64,000 bases of DNA, from assembly GCF_013283745.1 (NCBI RefSeq), contig NZ_JABSTZ010000002.1:558001-622000 (forward strand). The letters run 5' to 3'. The notes under the pieces are model-generated. The model did not search any database. It was not told the DNA's origin and saw nothing but the letters and a program-made list of their open reading frames with translations. The position numbers and the translations under genes were made by a program. The stretch comes from Aeromicrobium stalagmiti (lineage in GTDB: Bacteria > Actinomycetota > Actinomycetes > Propionibacteriales > Nocardioidaceae). Positions 28,904 through 42,895 of this stretch are shown here, piece after piece (within the stretch, counting starts at the first letter, position 1; the number at the start of each line of letters is the position of its first letter).

Positions 28904-29512
28904 ATGAAAGACCTGCTGAGACACCGGCTGCGCCGCGCCACGGCCGCCCTGACCCTGGGCGTCGCCCTGTGGGGCGCGGGCGGTCGAACCGGTGAGACCG
29001 TGCCGGCGGTCGTCGCGCCCCAGCCCACCCGAACGGTGCTCCCGCAGGTGCAGGTGGCGCCGGCGGCGCGCGACGTGGGGGAGCCCACGCGGCTGAGGAT
29101 CCCCGCGATCGGGGTCGACGAGCGCCTCCACGCCGTCGGCCTGCTGCCCAGCGGAGCGATGGAGACGCCGGACTTCGGCGATGCCGGCTGGTACGAGCCG
29201 GGTCCGCGGCCGGGGGCGCCCGGTCCGGCCGTGCTCGTGGCGCACGTGCACGGTCCGGCCGGCGACGACGTCTTCGCCGGGCTGCACGAGCTCAGGCGGG
29301 GCGACCGGGTGTCCGTCTCGCGGCACGGCGGGGGAGACACGTTCGTCGTGACGGACGTCGAGCAGGTCGACAAGGACGCGCTGCCGTACGACCGGATCTG
29401 GGGACCGACCCGCCGGCCGGTCCTGCGGCTCATCACCTGTGGCGGATCACCGGATCCGATCACTCGCACCTACCCCGACAACACGATCGTCTACGCCGAG
29501 AAATCACTCTGA
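28904..29512 (+). CDS. Class F sortase
   Basis: 202 residues. An N-terminal membrane segment (about 12-27) holds it outside the membrane. The catalytic set is VAHVHG (His114), LITCGG (Cys179) and ITRTYPDN (Arg188). RIPAIGVDERLHAVG and PGPAVLVAHVHG are typical of actinobacterial class F enzymes. It cleaves a sorting signal on a secreted protein and joins it to the wall. The next gene encodes a likely substrate, and both lie behind the same promoter motif as the upstream sigma factor. Confidence 0.92.
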   Translation: MKDLLRHRLRRATAALTLGVALWGAGGRTGETVPAVVAPQPTRTVLPQVQVAPAARDVGEPTRLRIPAIGVDERLHAVGLLPSGAMETPDFGDAGWYEPGPRPGAPGPAVLVAHVHGPAGDDVFAGLHELRRGDRVSVSRHGGGDTFVVTDVEQVDKDALPYDRIWGPTRRPVLRLITCGGSPDPITRTYPDNTIVYAEKSL

Positions 29513-33228: not shown

Positions 33229-34125
33229 GTGAGCATTGATGCAACAACGGTCGGCACCTCTCGCGTCAAGCGCGGCATGGCGGAGATGCTCAAGGGTGGC
33301 GTGATCATGGACGTCGTCAACGCCGAGCAGGCCAAGATCGCCGAAGACGCCGGCGCGGTCGCCGTGATGGCGCTCGAGCGGGTCCCGGCCGACATCCGTT
33401 CGCAGGGCGGCGTGGCCAGGATGTCCGATCCCGACCTGATCGACGGCATCATCGAGCAGGTCTCGATCCCGGTCATGGCCAAGGCCCGCATCGGTCACTT
33501 CGTCGAGGCACAGGTGCTGCAGAGCCTGGGTGTCGACTACATCGACGAGTCCGAGGTGCTGACCCCGGCCGACTACGCCAACCACATCGACAAGTGGAAC
33601 TACACGGTCCCGTTCGTGTGCGGAGCGACCAACCTGGGCGAGGCGCTGCGGCGCATCACCGAGGGTGCGGCGATGATCCGCTCCAAGGGCGAGGCCGGCA
33701 CCGGTGACGTCTCCAACGCCACGATGCACATGCGCAAGATCGGTGGCGAGATCCGCCGGCTGCAGTCGCTGTCCGTGGATGAGCTCTACGTCGCGGCCAA
33801 GGAGCTGCAGGCGCCGTTCGAGCTGGTCAAGGAGGTCGCCGAGGCGGGCAAGCTGCCCGTCGTGCTGTTCACCGCCGGCGGCATCGCGACCCCGGCCGAC
33901 GCGGCCATGATGATGCAGCTGGGTGCCGAGGGAGTGTTCGTCGGCTCGGGCATCTTCAAGTCCGGCAACCCCGCCGAGCGTGCTGCCGCGGTCGTCAAGG
34001 CCACCACGTTCTTCGACGACCCCGACGTCATCGCCAAGGTCTCGCGTGGCCTGGGCGAGGCGATGGTCGGCATCAACGTCGACGAGATCCCCGAGCCCCA
34101 CCGCCTGGCCGAACGCGGCTGGTGA
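33229..34125 (+). CDS. pdxS: Pyridoxal 5'-phosphate synthase lyase subunit PdxS
   Basis: 298 residues from GTG 33229 with AAAGGA upstream. [51 protein letters not shown], the ribose-phosphate lysine in [14 protein letters not shown] and the C-terminal GINVDEIP are invariant PdxS blocks. With PdxT it makes PLP from ribose 5-phosphate, glyceraldehyde 3-phosphate and glutamine-derived ammonia. Its partner pdxT lies about 8.2 kb downstream, beyond the duplicated signal-peptidase modules. A strong terminator follows it, so the two are not simply co-transcribed. Confidence 0.97.
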
Positions 34126-34164
34126 TGCTCGCGCGGCCCACGCCGCGCAGCTCGACCGACGACC

Positions 34165-34204
34165 AGACACCCCCGAACATTTTCGGGGGTGTCTGTCTTT
34201 TTTT
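34165..34204 (+). terminator. Rho-independent terminator after pdxS
   Basis: AGACACCCCCGAA (34165-34177) pairs with TTCGGGGGTGTCT (34182-34194) around CATT and is followed by GTC and a run of seven T. One of the strongest terminators in the window. It separates pdxS from the alternate-signal module. Confidence 0.95.
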
Positions 34205-34374: not shown

Positions 34375-34941
34375 ATGAAGAAGTCCACCAAGGGCGCCCT
34401 CGCGGCGTCGGCTGCAGGCATCCTGCTGCTCGGCGGCGCGGGATCGCTGGCCTACTGGACGGCCGACGGCACGGCCGACGGCGGTTCGGTCAGCTCCGGC
34501 GAGCTCAAGCTGAGCGACGGCACCTGCGACGCGACGTGGGTCTATGGCCCCGACAACGCCCAGGCCGGCCAGCCGGTCGCCCTCATCGTGCCGGGCGACA
34601 CGATCACGAAGGACTGCGACTTCGAGATCACCGCCAAGGGCGATAACCTGGCCGCGACGCCGACCCTGCCGGCGACGATCACGCTCAACCAGACGGCGGG
34701 CGACGAGAACCCGGCGCCGACGCTCTCGGCCACGGCCGCGGCGTCCTACTCGGTCACGCCCGACGCGCTGGTCGGTGGCAAGGTGACGTCGCTGCACGAC
34801 GGCGACACGCTCACCGCTGCCATCACGGTCACGTTCCCCTACGGCAACGCGACGACCTCGAACGCCAACGACACGCAGAACCTCGTCGCCCAGCTCGACA
34901 CGCTGACGGTCAGCCTGGTCCAGGACGACCCGAACGCCTGA
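34375..34941 (+). CDS. Alternate-signal (SipW/TasA-type) exported protein, module copy 1, gene 1
   Basis: 188 residues beginning MKKSTKGALAASAAGILLLG, then GGAGSLAYWTADGTADGGSV. This basic start, long hydrophobic run and A-[YF]-W-[TN] segment with small residues mark the signal cut by SipW-like peptidases (RER_14450-type alternate-signal proteins). The mature part is an all-beta domain, Thr/Asp-rich, with one cysteine pair (TCDATW and KDCDFEI). It is probably the main secreted product of the module, perhaps fibre-forming as TasA is; that is inference. First gene after the pdxS terminator. Confidence 0.85.
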   Translation: MKKSTKGALAASAAGILLLGGAGSLAYWTADGTADGGSVSSGELKLSDGTCDATWVYGPDNAQAGQPVALIVPGDTITKDCDFEITAKGDNLAATPTLPATITLNQTAGDENPAPTLSATAAASYSVTPDALVGGKVTSLHDGDTLTAAITVTFPYGNATTSNANDTQNLVAQLDTLTVSLVQDDPNA

Positions 34942-34957
34942 TCGACCTCCCGGTCCT

Positions 34958-35000
34958 GACGGGGCCGTGGTGGGCCCAGGGGTCTCACCACGGTCCCGTC
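34958..35000 (+). terminator. Hairpin between gene 1 and the signal peptidase in copy 1
   Basis: 34958-34972 pairs with 34986-35000 over 15 bp with one G-U pair and a 13-base loop, no T-run. It may partly end transcription, or protect gene 1 mRNA, so that the secreted protein exceeds its peptidase. Copy 2 has a hairpin at the same place. Confidence 0.6.
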
Positions 35001-35026
35001 TCCCGACCGGCAGGTCGGTGCCGCAC

Positions 35027-35596
35027 ATGTCGAAGCGTCGAGCAGAGCACCTCACCGTCCACGGATGGCTGACCCAGGTCGTGGCCTGGTTCGTCATCGC
35101 CGCCGTGGTGGCTTCGCTTGCCCTCTCGGTGCTGATTCCCCGGCTGGCCGGCGCCACCCCCTACACGATCCTGACGGGCTCGATGAAGCCCGGCATGCCG
35201 CCGGGCACCCTCGTGGTGGTCAAGGCGATCGACGTCGACGACCTCGATGTCGGGGACGTCGTCACCTACCAGCTCGAGTCGGGCCAGCCGACCGTCGTGA
35301 CCCACCGGGTCGTGGCGGTGGGAGTCGACCTGGCGGGGCGCACCGTGCTGACGACCCGAGGCGACGCCAACGACGCGACCGACGAGAAGCCGGTCATCCC
35401 CGCCCAGGTCAGGGGCGAGCGGTGGTACTCCGTGCCTTATCTCGGACACGTCAGCACGTGGTTCACCGATCGACAGCGCGAGTCCGCGACGGTCATCGTC
35501 GCGGCGGTGCTGCTCGGCTACGCGGTGACGATGTTCGTCGGCGCCGCTCGGAGCCGTGGCGACCGTGTGCGCCGCAGGGAAGGAGTGCGCACATGA
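35027..35596 (+). CDS. Signal peptidase I, SipW/ER type (Ser-His), module copy 1
   Basis: 189 residues from the ATG at 35027. A membrane helix at 15-38 and a second at about 165-180 enclose the external catalytic domain. The nucleophile is Ser52 in LTGSMKPGM. The second catalytic residue is His93 in VVTHRVV, where ordinary bacterial enzymes have Lys; this marks the SipW/archaeal-ER class. GDANDATDE is the box D region. Likely cuts the alternate signals of the flanking proteins. Its stop overlaps the next ATG as ATGA. Confidence 0.92.
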   Translation: MSKRRAEHLTVHGWLTQVVAWFVIAAVVASLALSVLIPRLAGATPYTILTGSMKPGMPPGTLVVVKAIDVDDLDVGDVVTYQLESGQPTVVTHRVVAVGVDLAGRTVLTTRGDANDATDEKPVIPAQVRGERWYSVPYLGHVSTWFTDRQRESATVIVAAVLLGYAVTMFVGAARSRGDRVRRREGVRT

Positions 35597-36237
35597 TCGA
35601 CGTCACGCGATCCGGCGCGCTCGCGCTGGTGCTGATCCTCGGCGCCGCCCTGCCGGCAGCCGCCGACCCCGAGGTGGGGCTCAGCGACGACGGGGTGACG
35701 TTCGGTCCCCGGCTCACCGAGCCGCTCTACGACCCCGCCGTGGTCTGGGTCCCCGGTGACGAGCGGGTCCGCACCTTCTACGTGCGCAACGAGTCCGACG
35801 ACGACGCACGCCTGTCGATCGACGTGCTCGGCTCGACCGTGGACTCGTTGATGGACACCGGTGACCTGTCGGTCTCGGCCCGCGGTGACGGTGGACCGTG
35901 GCAGGGGGTGTCGACTGCGGGGACCCATCGGCTGGTGTCGGGCGTCGACCTGCCGTCCGGTGACGTGTCACGGGTCGACGTCGAGGTGGCGCTCGACCCG
36001 ACCTCCGTCAACTCCTCGCAGCGCCGACGCCTCGACGTCGACTTCCGGGTGCGTCTGGTCCAGAAGCCGGCCGGTGTCGAGGACGCCGGCGAGACCGTCG
36101 ATCCTCCCGACGGCCTCCTGCCCGACACCGGAGGACCCGTCACCTGGGTCGTCCTCGTCGCCGCCTGCCTCATCGGCGGCGGAACCATCCTGACGTCGCG
36201 GCGTCACGAGAAGGAAGACTCCCATGTCCAGTCATAA
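35593..36237 (+). CDS. LPDTG wall-anchored surface protein, module copy 1
   Basis: 214 residues. Standard signal peptide 1-24 (LGAALPAAA-DP). The mature domain contains GLSDDGVTFGPRL, VVWVPGDERVRTFYVRN and RLSIDVLG, a beta sandwich like that in archaeal/CARDB-type or SipW-cluster surface proteins. The C-terminus has LLPDTGG, a hydrophobic helix and a RRHEKE tail, a full LPXTG sorting signal. It would be anchored by a sortase outside this window; the class F sortase upstream is a less likely partner. The next gene starts 14 bases before its stop. Confidence 0.85.
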   Translation: MIDVTRSGALALVLILGAALPAAADPEVGLSDDGVTFGPRLTEPLYDPAVVWVPGDERVRTFYVRNESDDDARLSIDVLGSTVDSLMDTGDLSVSARGDGGPWQGVSTAGTHRLVSGVDLPSGDVSRVDVEVALDPTSVNSSQRRRLDVDFRVRLVQKPAGVEDAGETVDPPDGLLPDTGGPVTWVVLVAACLIGGGTILTSRRHEKEDSHVQS

Positions 36238-36826
36238 GTCGACCCGCCGAGCGTCTCGCACGTCATGGTGGCGGTCCGCCCGGCTGCGAGCCGTGCTCAG
36301 CCTCGGCGTCGTGCTGGGGGTCGGCACGACCGGCACGATGGCGTCGTGGTCCGACACGGCCGTCGCGACCAGTGGCACGTTCACGACGGGCCAGCTCGAC
36401 CTGAAGCTCGGCAATCCTGCGGTGGACGCCAACCCGCCTCAGTTCACGACCGACTTCGCGATGACGGGGATGGTCCCGGGCAGCACCAAGGACGGCGTCC
36501 TGCGCATCACCAACGCCGGCACGGTGCCGTTCACCTTCAAGGCGTCCGGCTCGGCGACCAACAGCGGCGTGGGCACCGACCAGCTCGGGGCGGCGCTGCG
36601 CATCTCGGTCTACCCGTCGAGCAGCGCCGGCGTCTGCACGGGCACGGCCATCGTCACCGACCAGCCCGTCAACGGCGCCTTCCTGCCCAGCCAGGCGTCG
36701 CTGGCCAACGCCGCTACCCGTGACCTGTGCTTCCGGGCCACGCTGCCGTCGGCTGCCTCGACCGACCTGCAGGGCAAGTCGAGCGTCCTGACGCTGACGT
36801 TCACCGCAGACCAGGTGGCTCCCTGA
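36224..36826 (+). CDS. Alternate-signal (TasA/camelysin-like) exported protein, module copy 1, gene 4
   Basis: 200 residues. Basic start with RRASRTSWWRSARLRAV, hydrophobic LSLGVVLGVGTTGTMASW, then SDTAVATSGTFTTGQLDLKL. This is the classical SipW-dependent signal followed by the first strand of a TasA/camelysin-type beta domain. FAMTGMVPGSTKDGVLRITN and a cysteine pair (GVCTGTA, DLCFRATL) follow. Secreted, likely bound to the surface or built into a fibre. It overlaps the LPDTG gene by 14 bases and is followed after two bases by the fused peptidase. Confidence 0.85.
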   Translation: MSSHKSTRRASRTSWWRSARLRAVLSLGVVLGVGTTGTMASWSDTAVATSGTFTTGQLDLKLGNPAVDANPPQFTTDFAMTGMVPGSTKDGVLRITNAGTVPFTFKASGSATNSGVGTDQLGAALRISVYPSSSAGVCTGTAIVTDQPVNGAFLPSQASLANAATRDLCFRATLPSAASTDLQGKSSVLTLTFTADQVAP

Positions 36827-36828
36827 CC

Positions 36829-37806
36829 ATGACGACGCCGCGATCCGCCCGACGAGGCGCACACGCGCTCGGTGAGATCGCCCTGACCGTGGGCGCTCTC
36901 CTGGGGGTGCTGTGCGTCGTCGTGGCGGGTCTGGCCCTGGTGCTCGACGTCAAGCCCCTGATCTTCCGGTCCGGCTCGATGACGCCGACGATCCAGACGG
37001 GTGCCCTCGCCGTGGCGCGGTCCGTCCCGGCCTCGGACATCCAGGTCGGCGACGTCGTGAGCGTGGTGGGCGCCGGCGACGTGCGGGTCACGCACCGCGT
37101 CACCGGGGTCGAACGATCTCGCGACCGGGCCCGGCTGACCCTCAAGGGCGACGCCAACGAGGCAGCCGACCCCCTGCCGTACGACGTCGCGAGCGCGGAC
37201 CGCGTGCTGTTCGACGTCCCCCGGCTCGGCTACGTGCTGTCGTGGCTCTCGGGGCCGGCCGGTGCCTTCCTGGCCGGGATGCTCGTCGTCGTAGCGGTCC
37301 TGGTGATCGTGCGGCGCAGGCCGACCGACGATGGGGGAAACTCCGGTGCCGCGTCGCCGCCGGGCGGGCGCGGGGGAGCCCGCAAGGGCGCCAGGAGCAG
37401 ACGCTCCCGCGTCGTCTCGCGCAGCACCGTCGCGGTCGTGGCGACCGTCGCCATGGGTGCGCCGGCCGCCGCGGCGGGCTGGATCGACACCGGCACGGCG
37501 ACGAGCGGCACGTTCAGCACGACGACCATCGCGGTGCCGGCCAACTTCAGGTGCGGCGCCCTGGGAGTGCTGTCGGTGACCTTCAGTTGGGACGCCGTGC
37601 CGGGTGCCACGAGCTACACCGTCCACTACGGGGCCGGCGGTGCTCTCACCCGGGAGGTGACCACGACGTCCACGACGTTCGTCAGCGCCATCTCGGGCGG
37701 AACCGCATGGGTGAGGGCCAACCGGGCCTACACGAGCACGACCTGGACCTCGGCGGCCTCCAGTACGCGGTCCTACACAGTGGCCGTCGTCAGCCTCTGC
37801 AGCTGA
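36829..37806 (+). CDS. Signal peptidase I fused to an alternate-signal exported domain, module copy 1
   Basis: 325 residues. Residues 1-165 are a complete Ser-His signal peptidase (helix 17-40, Ser50 in FRSGSMTPT, His89 in RVTHRVT, box D KGDANEA, second helix 148-162). An Arg/Gly/Ser linker leads to a second hydrophobic run at 197-216 and then AGWIDTGTATSGTFSTTTI, the mature start typical of SipW substrates. A fibronectin-III-like domain (SVTFSWDAVPGATSYTVHY) ends the chain. So the peptidase carries its own likely substrate behind it. The reading frame is continuous, with normal codon use. Confidence 0.9.
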   Translation: MTTPRSARRGAHALGEIALTVGALLGVLCVVVAGLALVLDVKPLIFRSGSMTPTIQTGALAVARSVPASDIQVGDVVSVVGAGDVRVTHRVTGVERSRDRARLTLKGDANEAADPLPYDVASADRVLFDVPRLGYVLSWLSGPAGAFLAGMLVVVAVLVIVRRRPTDDGGNSGAASPPGGRGGARKGARSRRSRVVSRSTVAVVATVAMGAPAAAAGWIDTGTATSGTFSTTTIAVPANFRCGALGVLSVTFSWDAVPGATSYTVHYGAGGALTREVTTTSTTFVSAISGGTAWVRANRAYTSTTWTSAASSTRSYTVAVVSLCS

Positions 37807-37879
37807 GGTATCCGGCCGGTCGGGGTGGAGCCCCCGCTAGGCTGCTCCGTCGAGGGAGGGACACCTCGAAGGGACATCG

Positions 37880-38419
37880 ATGGACCAGTTCGGCCGTCGG
37901 CGGGCGAGTGGCCCGCTGCGCTCCGGGTGGTTCTGCCGCACCCTGGGCCTGCGGGTCGGGGCGGTCCTCGGAGCGCTCTGCCTGCTCGCGGCGGCGGCCG
38001 TCGTGGTGCTCGGCCTGAGCCCGATCACCCATCGATCAAGCTCGATGGCGCCGGCGATCTCCTCCGGCGACCTCTCGTTCGCCCGCACCGTGTCAGCCGG
38101 CTCCGTCGGCGTCGGCGACGTCGTCAGCGTCACCAACAGGTTGGGGCAGCGGATCACCCACCGGGTCACGCTCGTCGAGCCGTACGGCAGCAGCATCCGG
38201 CTGACCCTCAAGGCCGACCGGTCCGCGGTGCCCGACGCCGAGACCTACGAGGTGACCGAGGTCGATCGGGTGGCGTTCTCGGTGCCGTGGCTCGGGCTCC
38301 TGGTGAAACCGCTCGACGGCCTGCTCGCGGTCGTTGTCGGCGGTCTGCTGATCGCGTGCCTGGGTCTGGTCGTGGCCTCGCCGCACCGGCGCGGGGGCGG
38401 TTCTCGGCGCTCGGCATGA
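37880..38419 (+). CDS. Third signal peptidase I of the Ser-His type, between module copies
   Basis: 179 residues. N-terminal helix at about 24-46, Ser55 in HRSSSMAPAI, His94 in RITHRVT, box D partly changed to KADRSAVPD where the others have KGDAN, and a C-terminal helix at about 143-165. The changed box D may lower or shift its activity. It has no substrate gene of its own. Its stop overlaps the following 90-codon frame as ATGA. Confidence 0.85.
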   Translation: MDQFGRRRASGPLRSGWFCRTLGLRVGAVLGALCLLAAAAVVVLGLSPITHRSSSMAPAISSGDLSFARTVSAGSVGVGDVVSVTNRLGQRITHRVTLVEPYGSSIRLTLKADRSAVPDAETYEVTEVDRVAFSVPWLGLLVKPLDGLLAVVVGGLLIACLGLVVASPHRRGGGSRRSA

Positions 38420-38688
38420 GCGTCTCGCTGAATGGGCCTTCCGCGGAGTATGATGATCATGTCGCCGCGCGCGAGGTATGGGAGTGCCTCACATCGCGTG
38501 ACGACTCAAGAGGGAGCTCGGCCCGTCCGACGTTCGTCGTCATGGATGGTCTGCTCACTCCGTTGCCCCGATCGGGAGGGATATCCGAGAGGGAGCGGCG
38601 GCGGTGGCGTATCCCCTGGAGATTCGTCTCTCACGCCACCGCCGTCGTCACGCGGATGAGACGGTCGCGGGCTCATCGGCCGATGTGA
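38416..38688 (+). CDS. Unrecognised 90-codon frame coupled to the third signal peptidase
   Basis: The ATG overlaps the peptidase stop (ATGA). It encodes MSVSLNGPSAEYDDHVAARE near the start, FVVMDGLLTPLPRSGG in the middle and an Arg-rich end SHATAVVTRMRRSRAHRPM. The third-position GC is clearly lower than in its neighbours, with several AGA, ATA and ACA codons, so it may be a recently acquired gene, a decayed remnant or not coding. No motif recognised. Confidence 0.35.
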   Translation: MSVSLNGPSAEYDDHVAAREVWECLTSRDDSRGSSARPTFVVMDGLLTPLPRSGGISERERRRWRIPWRFVSHATAVVTRMRRSRAHRPM

Positions 38689-38814
38689 TCATGCCGTCTG
38701 GTCCCTTCGGGCCATCTTTGCTGCGGCAGCGTGTCCTGGTCGATTCGTGGTCGTTACAGGAGACGAACCACGGATCGTTCGGTGGTTCCCACTCCCACCT
38801 GAACGGACTCCCGC

Positions 38815-39336
38815 ATGAAGAAATCGACGAAGGGCGCGCTCGCGGCCGCCGCGGCCGGAACGCTCCTCCTCGGAGGCGCCGGCTCCCTCGCGTTCTGGAA
38901 CGCCACCGTCACGCTCGAGGGCGGCGACATCAACGGCGGCAAGCTGACCCTGACCCTCGATGAGTGCTCGGACTTCGAGTACGAGGACGGGACTGCGTAC
39001 GACCAGGCGATCGTGCCCGGCGACCTGCTGACGAAGGTCTGCACCTACACGATCGGCGCCAGCGGCGACAACCTCGCGGCCACCCCTTCGGTCGACGACG
39101 GAGACGGCTCGACCGGCACCCTCAACCCCTTCGTGACCGTCGACGCCGACTTCGACGTCGCCGGCGCGCCGCTCGGCGGGGCAGGTCAGATCACGTCCGA
39201 CAACGAGGGCGACACGCTGACGGCGACCATCACGGTCGACTTCCCGTTCGGTGCGGCTGTCGACAACGCGAGCAACGACAGCAAGACGCTGACGCTCGAC
39301 GACTACGTGGTGACGCTGACGCAGGACGTCAACTGA
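38815..39336 (+). CDS. Alternate-signal exported protein, module copy 2, gene 1
   Basis: 173 residues, paralogue of the gene at 34375. The signal MKKSTKGALAAAAAGTLLLG is almost identical, followed by GGAGSLAFWNATVTLEGGDI. The mature beta domain keeps the two cysteines (DECSDFEYE and KVCTYTI) and the VPGDLLTK and GDNLAATPS segments seen in copy 1. The signal is far better conserved than the mature part, which suggests the signal is under constraint from the peptidase while the surface-exposed part varies. Confidence 0.85.
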   Translation: MKKSTKGALAAAAAGTLLLGGAGSLAFWNATVTLEGGDINGGKLTLTLDECSDFEYEDGTAYDQAIVPGDLLTKVCTYTIGASGDNLAATPSVDDGDGSTGTLNPFVTVDADFDVAGAPLGGAGQITSDNEGDTLTATITVDFPFGAAVDNASNDSKTLTLDDYVVTLTQDVN

Positions 39337-39360
39337 CCCGTTGAACCCGTCCGTTCCCGC

Positions 39361-39388
39361 AGGGGCGTCGGCCGTCGCCGGCGCCCCT
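39361..39388 (+). terminator. Hairpin between gene 1 and the signal peptidase in copy 2
   Basis: 39361-39372 pairs with 39377-39388 over 12 bp with one G-U pair around CGTC. Same position in the module as the hairpin at 34958-35000 although the sequences differ. Confidence 0.6.
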
Positions 39389-39420
39389 CCCGGGTACACC
39401 TTCCATGAACCGAGGACTTC

Positions 39421-39978
39421 GTGAAGAGCATCGCCGGATGGATCGGCCAGGTCGTCTCCTGGCTCGTGATCTTCGCGGTCCTCGGCGTGCTCGCGATCTG
39501 CGTGCTGGTTCCCCGCCTGGGTGGCGGGACGCCCTACACGATCCTCACCGGGTCGATGGCGTCGTCCTACCCGCCGGGCACTCTTGTCGTGGTCCGGCCG
39601 ACTCCCATCGACGAGATCGCCATCGGTGACGTCATCACGTACCAGCTGGAGCCGGGCAAGCCCGCGGTAGCCACGCACCGCGTGATCGGCGAGAAGATCG
39701 CCGACGACGGATCGACCCGACTGCTGACCCAGGGCGACGACAACTCGGCCCCCGACCTCGGGTCGGTCCGCGCCGAGCAGATCCGGGGCACGCTCTGGTA
39801 CGCCGCGCCGTACCTCGGTCGGGCCAACCAGCTGCTCGACCGGTCCCAGCACCAGGCGGCCGTGGTCGCGGTCGGCTCCGGTCTCGTGATCTACGCCGCG
39901 TTCATGCTGGTCTCCGCTGCCGTGGACGTCCGCCGCCCCGCAGCGACCGAGCGTCCGAAGCAGGACGTGGCCGCATGA
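39421..39978 (+). CDS. Signal peptidase I, SipW/ER type, module copy 2
   Basis: 185 residues from GTG 39421. Helices at about 8-29 and 148-168. Ser45 in ILTGSMASSYPPG and His86 in VATHRVI form the dyad; QGDDNSAPD is box D. Orthologous in order and sequence to the gene at 35027 (shared VPRLGGGTPYTILTGSM-type segment). Its stop overlaps the next ATG as ATGA. Confidence 0.92.
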   Translation: MKSIAGWIGQVVSWLVIFAVLGVLAICVLVPRLGGGTPYTILTGSMASSYPPGTLVVVRPTPIDEIAIGDVITYQLEPGKPAVATHRVIGEKIADDGSTRLLTQGDDNSAPDLGSVRAEQIRGTLWYAAPYLGRANQLLDRSQHQAAVVAVGSGLVIYAAFMLVSAAVDVRRPAATERPKQDVAA

Positions 39979-40634
39979 GGATCCTCATCACCGGTCTGCT
40001 GACCGTCGTGGGTCTCGTGCTCGGCGCCGCGACACCGGCCTCGGCTGCGGACGAGATGGGCCTGAGCCATGACGGCATCACCTTCACCCCGACCCTCGGC
40101 GGCACCGTGTTCGACGACGGCATCGCGTGGGTTCCCGGCGACACGCGGACCGAGGTGTTCTACGTCCGCAACCAGGGCAATGCGCTCGCACGGCTGACCA
40201 TCGACGTGCTCGGTGCCCGAGTCACCGATCTCCTGGACTCCGGCGACCTCAGCATCACGGCGAGCGCCGAGGGCCGGTCACGAACCGTGGTGGACGCCGA
40301 CGAGCACCGCCTGCTCACGATCGAGGACATCGAGGACGAGCAGATCGTGCCCGTCACCGTGACCGTCTCGTTCGACGAGTCGTCGACCAACGAGACACAG
40401 CTCCTGGCCAGTGACGTGTCGTTCCGGGTCAACCTGCGACAGACCGGCGCGGTGCTCGACGACTCCGCCGGGGCCGATCCCGGCGACCCGGGTGTCCAGC
40501 CCGACTCCGGGCTCCTGCCCGACACCGGCGCGCCCGCGATGGGGTGGGCCGCCCTGGCCGCGGCCCTGATCGGCGCCGGCTCCGCACTCATCGCACGACG
40601 ACGTACTCACACAGAGGGAGCCTCCCATGGCTAA
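39975..40634 (+). CDS. LPDTG wall-anchored surface protein, module copy 2
   Basis: 219 residues. Signal peptide 1-25 (TPASA-AD). MGLSHDGITFTPTL, IAWVPGDTRTEVFYVRN and RLTIDVLGARVTDLLDSG correspond one for one to the copy 1 protein, roughly half identical by eye. The C-terminus has GLLPDTGAPA, a hydrophobic helix and RRRTHTE, a full LPXTG sorting signal. Overlaps the next gene by eight bases. Confidence 0.87.
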   Translation: MRILITGLLTVVGLVLGAATPASAADEMGLSHDGITFTPTLGGTVFDDGIAWVPGDTRTEVFYVRNQGNALARLTIDVLGARVTDLLDSGDLSITASAEGRSRTVVDADEHRLLTIEDIEDEQIVPVTVTVSFDESSTNETQLLASDVSFRVNLRQTGAVLDDSAGADPGDPGVQPDSGLLPDTGAPAMGWAALAAALIGAGSALIARRRTHTEGASHG

Positions 40635-41232
40635 GCACTCCACATCCCGACTTCGTCAGGGCCTGCGCAGCCTGCGCAGCGCGCCCGTCCGGGCGCTCCT
40701 CAGCCTCGGGGTCGTGCTCGGCCTCGGAGCCGTGGGCACCCTCGCGTACTGGACCGACGCCGCGACGCTCACCGGCGGAACGTTCCAGGCGGGCACTCTC
40801 GACATCAAGCTGGGCGGCGCCGACAACGACCCCACCGCGTTCACCACCAGCTTCGCGATGAGCAACATGCAGCCCGGTGACAGCAAGTCGGCGACCGTGG
40901 CCGTCCAGAACGCCGGCTCGCTCGACTTCACCTACACGGCAACCGGCACCGCAACCGGCGGCCTCGCGTCGAGCCTGGTCTTCCGGGTCGTCCCGGGTGG
41001 CACCTCGACCGGCACGGCCTGCACGGGCGGCACCCAGACCTACAACGCGGCTCTCAGCACCACGGCCACGGGCGTGATCACGGCCAACCGTCCGCTGGCA
41101 CGCAGCGGCCAGCCCGGGGACAGTGAGTCCTTCTGCGTCGTCGCCACCATCCCGACCGGCACCACGACCGGTCAGGGCCTCTCTGCCACGGCCGCATTCA
41201 CGTTCAGCGCTAAGCAGGTCGGAGCCCCGTAA
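40627..41232 (+). CDS. Alternate-signal (TasA/camelysin-like) exported protein, module copy 2, gene 4
   Basis: 201 residues. Basic N-terminus with RLRQGLRSLRSAPVRA, hydrophobic LLSLGVVLGLGAVGTLAYW, then TDAATLTGGTFQAGTLDIKL. FAMSNMQPGDSKSATVAVQN and the cysteine pair (TACTGGT, ESFCVVATIP) match its copy 1 counterpart. Its stop overlaps the fused peptidase ATG by one base (TAATG). Confidence 0.87.
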   Translation: MAKHSTSRLRQGLRSLRSAPVRALLSLGVVLGLGAVGTLAYWTDAATLTGGTFQAGTLDIKLGGADNDPTAFTTSFAMSNMQPGDSKSATVAVQNAGSLDFTYTATGTATGGLASSLVFRVVPGGTSTGTACTGGTQTYNAALSTTATGVITANRPLARSGQPGDSESFCVVATIPTGTTTGQGLSATAAFTFSAKQVGAP

Positions 41233-42260
41233 TGTCCGACCCCCAGATGCGGCTCGGCTACGTGGAGATCCCCGAGACACGGGCCGAGCGACGCCAGCGC
41301 AGACGCCGCGCGGTCTTCTCGTTCCGCGCCGTCCGTGAGGTCACCCTGACGGTCGGCGCCGTCCTGGGCGTGCTGTGCGTCCTGAGTGCCGTCGTCGCCG
41401 TGGCGTTCGACGTCAGGCCGGTGGTGTTCAGGTCGGGCTCGATGGCGCCGGCGATCGACACCGGGGCCCTGGCGATCTCCCGAACGGTTCCCGCCTCCGA
41501 GCTCGCCGTGGGTGACGTCGTGACGGTCAGGACGGGGACCGGTGTGCGCGTCACCCACCGCATCAAGGACCTCTCCCGGTCCGACGGCAAGGCCACGCTC
41601 GTCCTCAAGGGAGACGCGAACGGGGTGCCCGACGAGAACGTCTACGTCGTGGACTCGGCCCCGCGCGTGCTGTTCGACATCCCGAAGGCCGGGTACGTCG
41701 TCTCGTTCACGTCCGGCCCGATCGGGATCTTCGCCGGCGGGCTCCTCGTCGGGGTGGTGCTGCTGACCATCTTTCGGCCCCGGACGCCGCGCGCCCCGGA
41801 CCAGGGGGGCTCACGCAAGGGATCCGGGCGCCGGAAGGCGGCGTCGATCACGTCGGTCATGATCGTCGGCACCTGCGTCACCGGAGTGTTCTCGGGCGCG
41901 CAGACCCAGGCCTACTACACCGACACCGCCACGGCGACGTCCGGCACCTTCACCCGACCGGCGGCTGTCACGATCACCGGCTGCACCACGAGCGGCAACA
42001 GCCTCACCATCACCTGGACTGCTCCGGTGAGCCCGACCACGTGGGAGTTCCGCTACTCGTACAGCACGCCGGCCGGTCAGACCGAGGTGGACTCCTTCTC
42101 CGGAAACCTGCGCACCAGGACGTCCACGACCAACCTCAACAACAAGGCCGGCACCCTGACGCTCGTCGGCCTCTTCCCCTCACCCACGGGAGAGCGCACA
42201 TCGTTCACCTACGCGTTCAGCGGCAACGGCTCGGGACGTAGCTGCACGCTCGTCCCATGA
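41232..42260 (+). CDS. Signal peptidase I fused to an alternate-signal exported domain, module copy 2
   Basis: 342 residues. A longer basic N-terminus (RRQRRRRAVFSF), helix at 38-60, Ser70 in FRSGSMAPAI, His109 in VRVTHRIK, box D KGDANGV, second helix at about 162-180. A basic linker precedes a third hydrophobic run at 205-222, then TQAYYTDTATATSGTF, the SipW-substrate signature, and a beta domain with one cysteine pair (GCTTSG, RSCTLVP). Same architecture as 36829-37806, so the fusion is ancestral to the duplication. pdxT starts 35 bases later. Confidence 0.9.
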   Translation: MSDPQMRLGYVEIPETRAERRQRRRRAVFSFRAVREVTLTVGAVLGVLCVLSAVVAVAFDVRPVVFRSGSMAPAIDTGALAISRTVPASELAVGDVVTVRTGTGVRVTHRIKDLSRSDGKATLVLKGDANGVPDENVYVVDSAPRVLFDIPKAGYVVSFTSGPIGIFAGGLLVGVVLLTIFRPRTPRAPDQGGSRKGSGRRKAASITSVMIVGTCVTGVFSGAQTQAYYTDTATATSGTFTRPAAVTITGCTTSGNSLTITWTAPVSPTTWEFRYSYSTPAGQTEVDSFSGNLRTRTSTTNLNNKAGTLTLVGLFPSPTGERTSFTYAFSGNGSGRSCTLVP

Positions 42261-42295: not shown

Positions 42296-42895
42296 GTGGC
42301 TTCCCCCTCGATCGGCGTCTTCGCCCTGCAAGGTGACGTTCGCGAGCACCTGCACGCCCTGACAGCACTCGGCGTCGACGCGTTCAGCGTCCGCCGGCCC
42401 GAGGAGCTCGCCCGCTGCGACGCCCTGGTGCTGCCGGGTGGGGAGTCCACGACGATGTACAAGCTCGCGCGGACGTTCGAGCTGTTCGAGCCACTCGTCG
42501 ACCGCATCCGCGGCGGCATGCCCACCTTCGGCACGTGCGCCGGGATGATCATGCTCGCCGACCGCATCGAGGACGGCATCGTCGGGCAGGAGACGCTCGG
42601 CGGGCTCGACATCACGGTGCGGCGCAACGCGTTCGGCAGGCAGGTCGACTCCTTCGAGGGCGACATCGCGTTCGACGGCTTCGCCGACCCGGTGCACGCG
42701 GTCTTCATCCGCGCTCCTTGGGTCGAGGCGGTCGGTCCGGAGGTCGACGTCCTTGCCACGATCCCGACGGGCGAGGCAGCCGGTAGAATCGTCGCGGTCC
42801 GACAGGGCAGCCTGATGGCGACCTCGTTCCACCCCGAGGTGGGGAGCGACGATCGCATTCACCGCTACTTCGTCGACCAGGTCTTGCAGGCCTAG
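42296..42895 (+). CDS. pdxT: Pyridoxal 5'-phosphate synthase glutaminase subunit PdxT
   Basis: 199 residues from GTG 42296. [30 protein letters not shown], the glutaminase nucleophile in [11 protein letters not shown] (Cys near residue 81), [12 protein letters not shown] and the His/Glu pair in [10 protein letters not shown] are all present. It supplies ammonia to PdxS. With no clear promoter gap, it may depend on transcription from the second surface module, an odd arrangement for a vitamin gene. Confidence 0.96.

Follow-up and report, generated by a model that had tools for sequence, protein, structure and literature searches.

Exchangeable five-gene cassettes with SipW-type peptidases between pdxS and pdxT of Aeromicrobium stalagmiti, a candidate TasA-like fibre system of actinobacteria

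Two five-gene cassettes at the pdxS–pdxT locus

The window analysed in this work is a 64,000-nucleotide stretch of Aeromicrobium stalagmiti (contig NZ_JABSTZ010000002.1, positions 558,001 to 622,000 of the forward strand), in which two related cassettes, A and B, lie between the genes pdxS and pdxT. Each cassette encodes, in the same order, a secreted protein with a SipW-type signal (gene 1), a SipW-type signal peptidase (gene 2), an LPDTG protein (gene 3), a TasA/camelysin-like subunit (gene 4) and a fusion of a signal peptidase with a substrate-like tail (gene 5), and we propose that such a set may build a wall-anchored surface fibre. An earlier note made from these letters had described two blocks of this order, and they were confirmed at 34375-37806 and 38815-42260; its ten genes are all present with small corrections, but a third S26-type peptidase gene, X, and a structured RNA element between the cassettes had been overlooked (Table 1). 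From gene 2 onward the genes are spaced by -4, -14 and +2 bases in copy A and by -4, -8 and -1 in copy B, so that five of the six joins overlap, much as the note had said, the sixth being the 2-base gap in copy A; gene 1 is separated from gene 2 by 85 bases in copy A and 84 in copy B.

The two copies are clearly diverged, again as first described, with 45-51% protein identity gene by gene. Global alignment of genes 1 to 5 gave 88/171, 85/182, 94/210, 84/188 and 137/293 identical positions (51, 47, 45, 45 and 47%; scores 340, 400, 395, 320 and 489), and local scores of 345 (A1/B1), 320 (A4/B4) and 498 (A5/B5) stand against a maximum of 102 in 300 shuffled comparisons. A likeness by chance is excluded.

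TIGR04089 (cut-off 60) includes A1 at 150.9 bits and B1 at 139.9 bits but not A4 (23.5 bits) or B4 (17.8 bits), and all four proteins carry the TIGR04088 signal (A1 26.4, A4 33.8, B1 22.8 and B4 36.8 bits; cut-off 19). The peptidases A2 (88 bits), B2 (80.8), B5 (71.9) and also A5 exceed the cut-off of TIGR02228 (51.85), X remains below it (37.5 bits), and the Bacillus SipW equivalog NF046067 was not reached (80.3 bits against 190). X is 42% identical to A5 and 40% to B5, and it also stands 3′ of the A5 counterpart in seven further genomes (G142, G134, G151, G112, G106, G109 and G115; the codes G and L denote genomes and loci of our comparison).

For gene 4, B4 lies above and A4 below the cut-off of Pfam M73, the camelysin family (33.7 and 16.2 bits; cut-off 22.5), and B4 does not reach the TasA equivalog NF046066 (15.2 bits against 450). 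The three best solved structures for the gene-4 family profile are AbpX (E 0.0033) and TasA twice (0.0055 and 0.0097), followed by the unrelated FAP74 (E 0.011), and a kinship of gene 4 to AbpX and TasA is weakly indicated. No TasA-like chain was found when the profiles of genes 1 and 3 were compared with solved structures. Genes 1, 3 and 4 are related to one another, with profile-profile matches of 96.7% (1 with 4), 94.1% (3 with 1) and 91.2% (3 with 4).

The gene-3 proteins barely exceed the cut-off of the LPXTG anchor model TIGR01167 (A3 16.1, B3 16.7 bits; cut-off 15.9), and the library scans gave them no further family above cut-off. They possess the LPDTG motif, a hydrophobic helix at residues 183-206 and a basic tail, and the genome has a sortase, so that attachment to the wall can be predicted. 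Structural modelling gave an archaeal bundling pilus as the top Foldseek match of gene 3, and the alignment of the model with TasA starts at residue 45 and hence excludes the donor strand (28-38), which suggests a TasA-like body lacking the donor segment. One of the two sortase matches of the genome lies about 5 kb upstream of the cassettes (NF033748 147.6 bits, cut-off 166; PF04203 74 bits). No model named for TapA occurs among the library matches of the 11 proteins, the presence of such a model in the libraries being unchecked. A TapA relative was not found by sequence, and the gene-5 tail may be regarded as its equivalent on the grounds of architecture and segment matching.

Outside the cassettes, the same genome encodes a further SipW-type peptidase with an adjoining gene-4-like protein (L076:7093-8436; G000:C1, about 312 kb), as well as another LPDTG protein, not near the cassettes, whose match is gene-3-like (L078:7220-7879 on the minus strand; G000:C1, about 289 kb).

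Table 1. Features of the pdxS–pdxT locus in the window (positions of the window).
Feature	Positions	Strand	Basis or remark
pdxS, 5′ flank	33229..34125	+	open reading frame, start chosen by hand
Intrinsic terminator 3′ of pdxS	34164..34195	+	stem of 14 pairs, then TCTTTTTTT
A1, secreted protein, SipW-type signal, gene-4 relative	34375..34941	+	TIGR04089, TIGR04088
A2, SipW-type (S26B) signal peptidase	35027..35596	+	TIGR02228
A3, ordinary signal peptide, predicted TasA/AbpA-like beta sandwich lacking a donor segment, with LPDTG anchor	35593..36237	+	
A4, TasA/camelysin-like subunit, SipW-type signal	36224..36826	+	TIGR04088
A5, S26 signal peptidase, SipW-type signal, donor-like segment and FN3 domain, fused	36829..37806	+	
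A5 donor-like segment, 16 residues (216-231)	37474..37521	+	between third helix (190-210) and FN3
X, third S26-type peptidase, without tail, closes slot A	37880..38419	+	
Structured RNA element	38440..38674	+	covariation; no Rfam family
B1, counterpart of A1	38815..39336	+	TIGR04089
B2, SipW-type signal peptidase, GTG start	39421..39978	+	TIGR02228
B3, LPDTG protein, counterpart of A3	39975..40634	+	TIGR01167
B4, TasA/camelysin-like subunit	40627..41232	+	Pfam M73, TIGR04088
B5, peptidase-tail fusion, counterpart of A5	41232..42260	+	TIGR02228, gene-5 family alignment
pdxT, 3′ flank	42296..42895	+	
Sortase, class F-like, possible partner of the LPDTG proteins	28904..29512	+	NF033748, PF04203

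The five-gene block is common in Nocardioidaceae and has relatives in other actinobacteria, as judged from sequence. Among 197 genomes of the family, gene-3 matches occur in 68 (some merely LPXTG-like) and gene-5 matches in 117 (some being other S26 peptidases), and stretches were fetched around a chosen part of these matches. In this family sample, four or more genes could be parsed in 63 modules, of which 50 have the complete order 1-2-3-4-5; most modules lie between pdxS and pdxT, and single-copy loci exist in several genera. The set is kept as a unit, and scattered genes without co-inheritance, which would have spoken against the earlier note, were not found. The alignments of the gene families used 31 of 41 candidates for gene 5, 41 of 42 for gene 3, 38 of 104 for gene 4 and 36 of 92 for gene 1, together with the two proteins of the window in each case. 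Because the gene-3 alignment was too variable as a query, contigs were scanned with the gene-2 alignment. A gene-2 relative was confirmed at 157 places, and the best 80 of these make up the named loci, which were chosen for that relative and form no census; 41 of these 80 contain both pdxS and pdxT, and in 41 of 41 the module genes stand between them. The variant 1-4-2-(3)-4-5 predominates at the loci of Rhodococcus, Williamsia, Gordonia, Arthrobacter and Kitasatospora, Rhodococcus also has 1-4-5-1-4-2, and neither pdxS nor pdxT was found in the fetched stretches of these variant loci. One record titled Sporosarcina beigongshangi (L220), and hence labelled a Firmicute, contains an actinobacterial-type 1-4-2-3-4-5 module, by contamination, misnaming or transfer.

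A peptidase-tail fusion and its matched donor-like segments

In 33 aligned gene-5 proteins (31 and the two of the window) the residues S50, H89 and D108 and the tail cysteines C242 and C324 are invariant; we take the former three to be the catalytic residues of the Ser-His peptidase. S26 proteins of fusion size, taken as those in which 250 or more residues follow the active serine, are present in 66 of the 80 named loci, some of the remaining 14 stopping at a contig end, and 61 of the 71 proteins concerned have a SipW-type junction in the tail. The tail profile matches gene 4 over 26 columns (95.0%). In the structural model, A5 has three predicted helices and a basic linker, the tail is assigned an FN3 fold, and pLDDT is below 50 across residues 210-231, the region of the donor-like segment. 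The tail has been exchanged independently of the peptidase, as examples from 1711 pairs illustrate: the identities of peptidase and tail are 74% and 37% between G134 and G142, and 40% and 67% between G102 and G106.

Within each of 59 cassettes, the 16 residues that follow the predicted cut in gene 4 were compared with those in the gene-5 tail, eight of 67 gene-4 rows having been dropped as their gene-5 partner was not parsed. Within cassettes 7.90 of 16 residues are identical, against 5.87 (standard deviation 0.19) when partners are shuffled, and none of 5000 shuffles reached the observed value; residues 5-16 alone give a z score of 10.2. Because kinship between cassettes removes their independence, the shuffles make the match look stronger than it is, and the safer figure is that of the 18 dissimilar cassettes (gene 4 less than 50% identical), for which z is 4.9. 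The flanks do not match in this way (z 1.0 for the 16 residues before the cut, 1.3 for the 16 after the segment). Gene 4 also matches gene 1 (z 5.1), the gene-5 tail and gene 1 giving z 1.5. Among nine genomes that carry two cassettes, pairing within the cassette was better than cross pairing in six and tied with it in three.

Based on these findings, we propose that each cassette builds a wall-anchored fibre through donor-strand exchange, as TasA does, with gene 5 as the initiator and gene 3 as the anchor, a proposal that we hold to be about evenly poised. The sequences themselves show which genes are present, in what order and of which protein families, that gene 5 is a fusion, that its segment matches that of gene 4 and that cassettes have been exchanged; fibre assembly and cleavage are read from the anatomy of the genes. 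In the TasA fibre, the groove of a subunit is filled by residues 28-38 of the preceding one (PMC9674648). By analogy, the products of genes 1 and 4 would be exported by their SipW-type signals and trimmed by gene 2, by the peptidase half of gene 5, or by both, and the N-terminus set free by trimming, typically A-[YF]-W-T-D..., would serve as a donor strand for the groove of the subunit that follows, gene 4 and probably also gene 1 forming the shaft. Gene 5 could then be a SipW fused to a TapA-like initiator, with the peptidase outside the membrane, the basic linker inside and the third helix acting as a second signal, followed by the donor segment and FN3, an arrangement that would place the initiator at the site of cutting. 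In the accessible text on TapA, its N-terminus resembles that of TasA, and it is confined to the filament start because its Ig fold is already complete (PMC10151520). As a complete FN3 offers no groove, the gene-5 tail would likewise fit one fibre end only, probably the start. Gene 3, having a TasA-like body and the LPDTG motif but no donor segment, would be a strand acceptor only, closing the other end, and the sortase would link it to the wall. As the donor segments would be specific to their cassette, a cell with two cassettes could form separate fibres. At the level of homology, support is found for the earlier view of a putative self-contained apparatus that would produce a surface polymer, here of TasA type, cleave it and anchor it to the wall.

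More tentatively, and as a possible rather than a probable course of events, the peptidase may carry in cis the subunit with which its own fibre begins, its self-cleavage freeing or arming the donor strand and starting assembly at the membrane; a donor code per cassette would keep the fibres apart, and the swappable FN3 would be a variable exposed end. Instead, the gene-5 tail might never be released and act as a membrane-tethered FN3 adhesin or as a docking arm through which the peptidase recruits the gene-4 product, genes 1 and 4 perhaps encoding soluble matrix proteins. The covalent union of tail and enzyme in most named loci, the predicted helices and basic linker that suit a stable membrane protein, and a variable tail swapped independently of the peptidase would all fit this explanation. 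However, the tail starts with a substrate-like SipW-type signal and junction, and in two Nocardioides loci (L188 and L189) stand-alone tails are encoded as separate proteins with a signal of their own, and we consider a permanently tethered tail doubtful.

The segment match could also reflect the specificity of the cassette's signal peptidase beyond the cut, with no shared groove involved. Such signals are served by a SipW-type peptidase, genes 4 and 1 match too, and Escherichia coli LepB is reported, in the part of the source available, to cut poorly with an aromatic P2′ residue (PMC10269814). The excess identity, however, is greatest at positions 9, 11, 12 and 14 after the predicted cut, and the signal core before it has no match. 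Signal peptidases are not known to read as far past the cut as these positions. An origin in peptidase specificity is therefore judged improbable, and a groove-filling donor segment is preferred.

Two slots, an RNA element and the exchange of cassettes

The genus sample comprised 49 genomes, 46 of which have a pdxS match, and pdxS and pdxT could be measured on one contig in 44, the spacer not being measurable in G151, G159, G155, G167 and G171. By hand count, 21 of the 44 spacers are shorter than 500 bases, 14 have the length of one cassette (3.7-4.8 kb), two are of 6.1-6.2 kb and seven hold two cassettes (7.3-8.8 kb). The closest pdxS relatives, G124 (99%), G063 (98%) and G126 (98%), have an empty site. 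The empty sites were also considered as deletion scars, which was rejected: 11 spacers of 285-483 bases had no trace of the sequence adjoining pdxS and pdxT in the window (best local scores 15-27). Modules away from this site were observed in G145, G100, G103, G094 and G136 (L119/L149, L067-L070), genomes in which 5-8 bases separate the matches to pdxS and pdxT, and a second full-length pdxS match lies elsewhere in the genome of G140, G063, G130 and G112.

An element of about 235 bases is present in nine of the 11 empty spacers read, the exceptions being G019 and G121; in cassette-free species it lies immediately 5′ of pdxT, and in the window between X and B1. In an alignment of 18 sequences, 18 pairs have two-sided changes, against 7.7 (standard deviation 1.7) in shuffled alignments and 3-9 when the alignment is slid. 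The covariation model matches 22 of the 49 genomes, comprising the 18 training sequences, three new ones and one weak match elsewhere (G103), and G106 has a weak antisense match within its own element. Apart from the window copy, the named occurrences are L122-L130 and G138:C1:1187062-1187254; the latter and the other new matches, in G128 and G157, each end a few bases from pdxT, and the element for that reason looks like a pdxT leader, and it may represent a novel kind of leader RNA for a vitamin B6 gene. Rfam gave a single chance match (UCA1, E 0.27), which was rejected. In the window the element now lies 5′ of cassette B rather than of pdxT.

The element divides the site into slot A before it and slot B after it. 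Slot A alone is filled, by a cassette and X, in G142, G134 and G151 (in the last of which the contig begins inside gene 5), and slot B alone, by one cassette, in G169. As the sequences have it, cassettes are present, absent or swapped between species.

The earlier note had read the two copies as an old tandem duplication, which in its stated form is unsupported. A duplication in this lineage with later divergence, perhaps with exchange of parts, would account for the equal order, place and strand of the copies and for single copies elsewhere. In the tree of 63 concatenated modules, however, window A and window B are widely separated, and with joined genes two constraints were rejected, that of the window modules as sisters (log-likelihood difference dlnL 260; P value of the approximately unbiased test, p-AU, 1.1e-5) and that of a single clade for groups A and B (dlnL 291, p-AU 9.5e-5), although the joined-gene tests presuppose one history, which the exchange of parts breaks. 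For single genes, one clade was rejected for gene 1 (p-AU 1.4e-6), gene 4 (1.7e-43) and the gene-5 peptidase (4.8e-4), gene 3 was borderline (0.045), and gene 2 did not reject it (0.81), its constrained tree lying 21 log units above the free quick tree. The window pair as sisters gave p-AU of 0.10 for gene 1, 0.053 for gene 2, 0.045 for gene 3, 2.9e-6 for gene 4 and 0.17 for gene 5, so that genes 1, 2 and 5 would allow a sister pair. All of these tests used quick trees, with groups named after a tree had been viewed.

Further comparisons argue for replacement and mosaicism. G106 and G115 are 100% identical in pdxS, 88-96% in slot A, 93% in X and 99% in pdxT, but just 38-53% in slot B. A whole cassette was replaced in slot B, and the slot-B gene 2 of G106 groups with that of G014, which has a different genus code (99/96). 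G112 and G115 share 91% identity in A1 and 80% in A2, and 51% in A4 and 52% in A5. In the gene-2 tree, window A groups with the slot-A genes of G142, G112, G115, G106 and G109 (98/96); in the joined tree it adjoins G047 (80), and A4 is 64% identical to its G047 counterpart and at most 47% to others. As these three disagree on its relatives, cassette A is a mosaic.

Therefore, since the pdxT-side element separates the copies and the joined-gene tests and those of genes 1, 4 and 5 oppose it, a simple tandem duplication is set aside; species that have slot A or slot B alone and the different slot-B cassette of G106 also speak against it. A duplication, perhaps followed by part exchange, is taken to be quite improbable. 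Two separate slots, filled and refilled, best account for the element, the single-slot species and the mosaics. On the evidence of sequence, exchange affects entire cassettes as well as portions of them, a pattern one would expect if diversifying selection acted on a surface structure. Although genes 4 and 5 adjoin and part exchange is frequent, gene conversion between them is a highly improbable source of the matched segments, and a recent one was rejected, as the likeness is limited to 16 residues and codon agreement at identical residues is not clearly raised (254/440 = 0.577 within cassettes against 0.543, standard deviation 0.024, between them).

Relation to known systems and significance

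By its peptidases and signals the locus can be classed as a TasA/SipW-like system, its subunit family being borderline. As in tapA-sipW-tasA of Bacillus subtilis, a SipW-type peptidase adjoins beta-sandwich substrates with SipW-type signals, and the N-terminus of the accessory protein there resembles that of the subunit (TapA AFHDI, TasA AFNDI, in the available text of PMC10151520). However, the initiator-like protein is here fused to the peptidase and has an FN3 fold by model, and the locus differs further by its two or three peptidases, by the LPDTG anchor and by an additional substrate family (TIGR04089). The sipW-bsaABCRSD locus of Clostridium perfringens likewise has a SipW-dependent secreted polymer and a sortase gene nearby, but BsaA has no LPXTG motif, the polymer is independent of srtB, and neither a fusion nor cassette exchange is described in the accessible portion of the text on that system (PMC7395162). 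In TasA-CalY-CapP of Bacillus cereus, two SipW-processed subunits co-assemble with a chaperone-like accessory protein; unlike here, the available text describes a sortase-independent system, in which CapP is a separate protein (PMC13082335). The bundling pili AbpA (7ueg) and AbpX (9sj2), top matches of gene 3 by fold and of gene 4 by profile, are archaeal. The NCBIfam models TIGR04089 and TIGR04088 do include the proteins of genes 1 and 4 as given above, but they cover single proteins or domains, and their names convey no module, fusion or anchor. Among the matches listed from the open-access literature, with subscription papers mostly outside it, titles and abstract starts do not describe the five-gene module, and the genus name Aeromicrobium is absent from the fimbriae literature among them.

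In conclusion, donor-strand fibres of Gram-positives are known from Bacillus, and the cassettes reported here, if the proposal is true, would represent an actinobacterial version. What would then be new is the start of the fibre by an initiator fused to its processing enzyme and its end by a wall-anchored acceptor, neither of which belongs to the TasA model in the texts available. The matching of segments between genes 4 and 5 makes the proposal directly testable through cross-cassette complementation, and with cassettes being swapped at a single chromosomal site, nature supplies a series of variants in which the causes of surface-fibre diversity can be examined.

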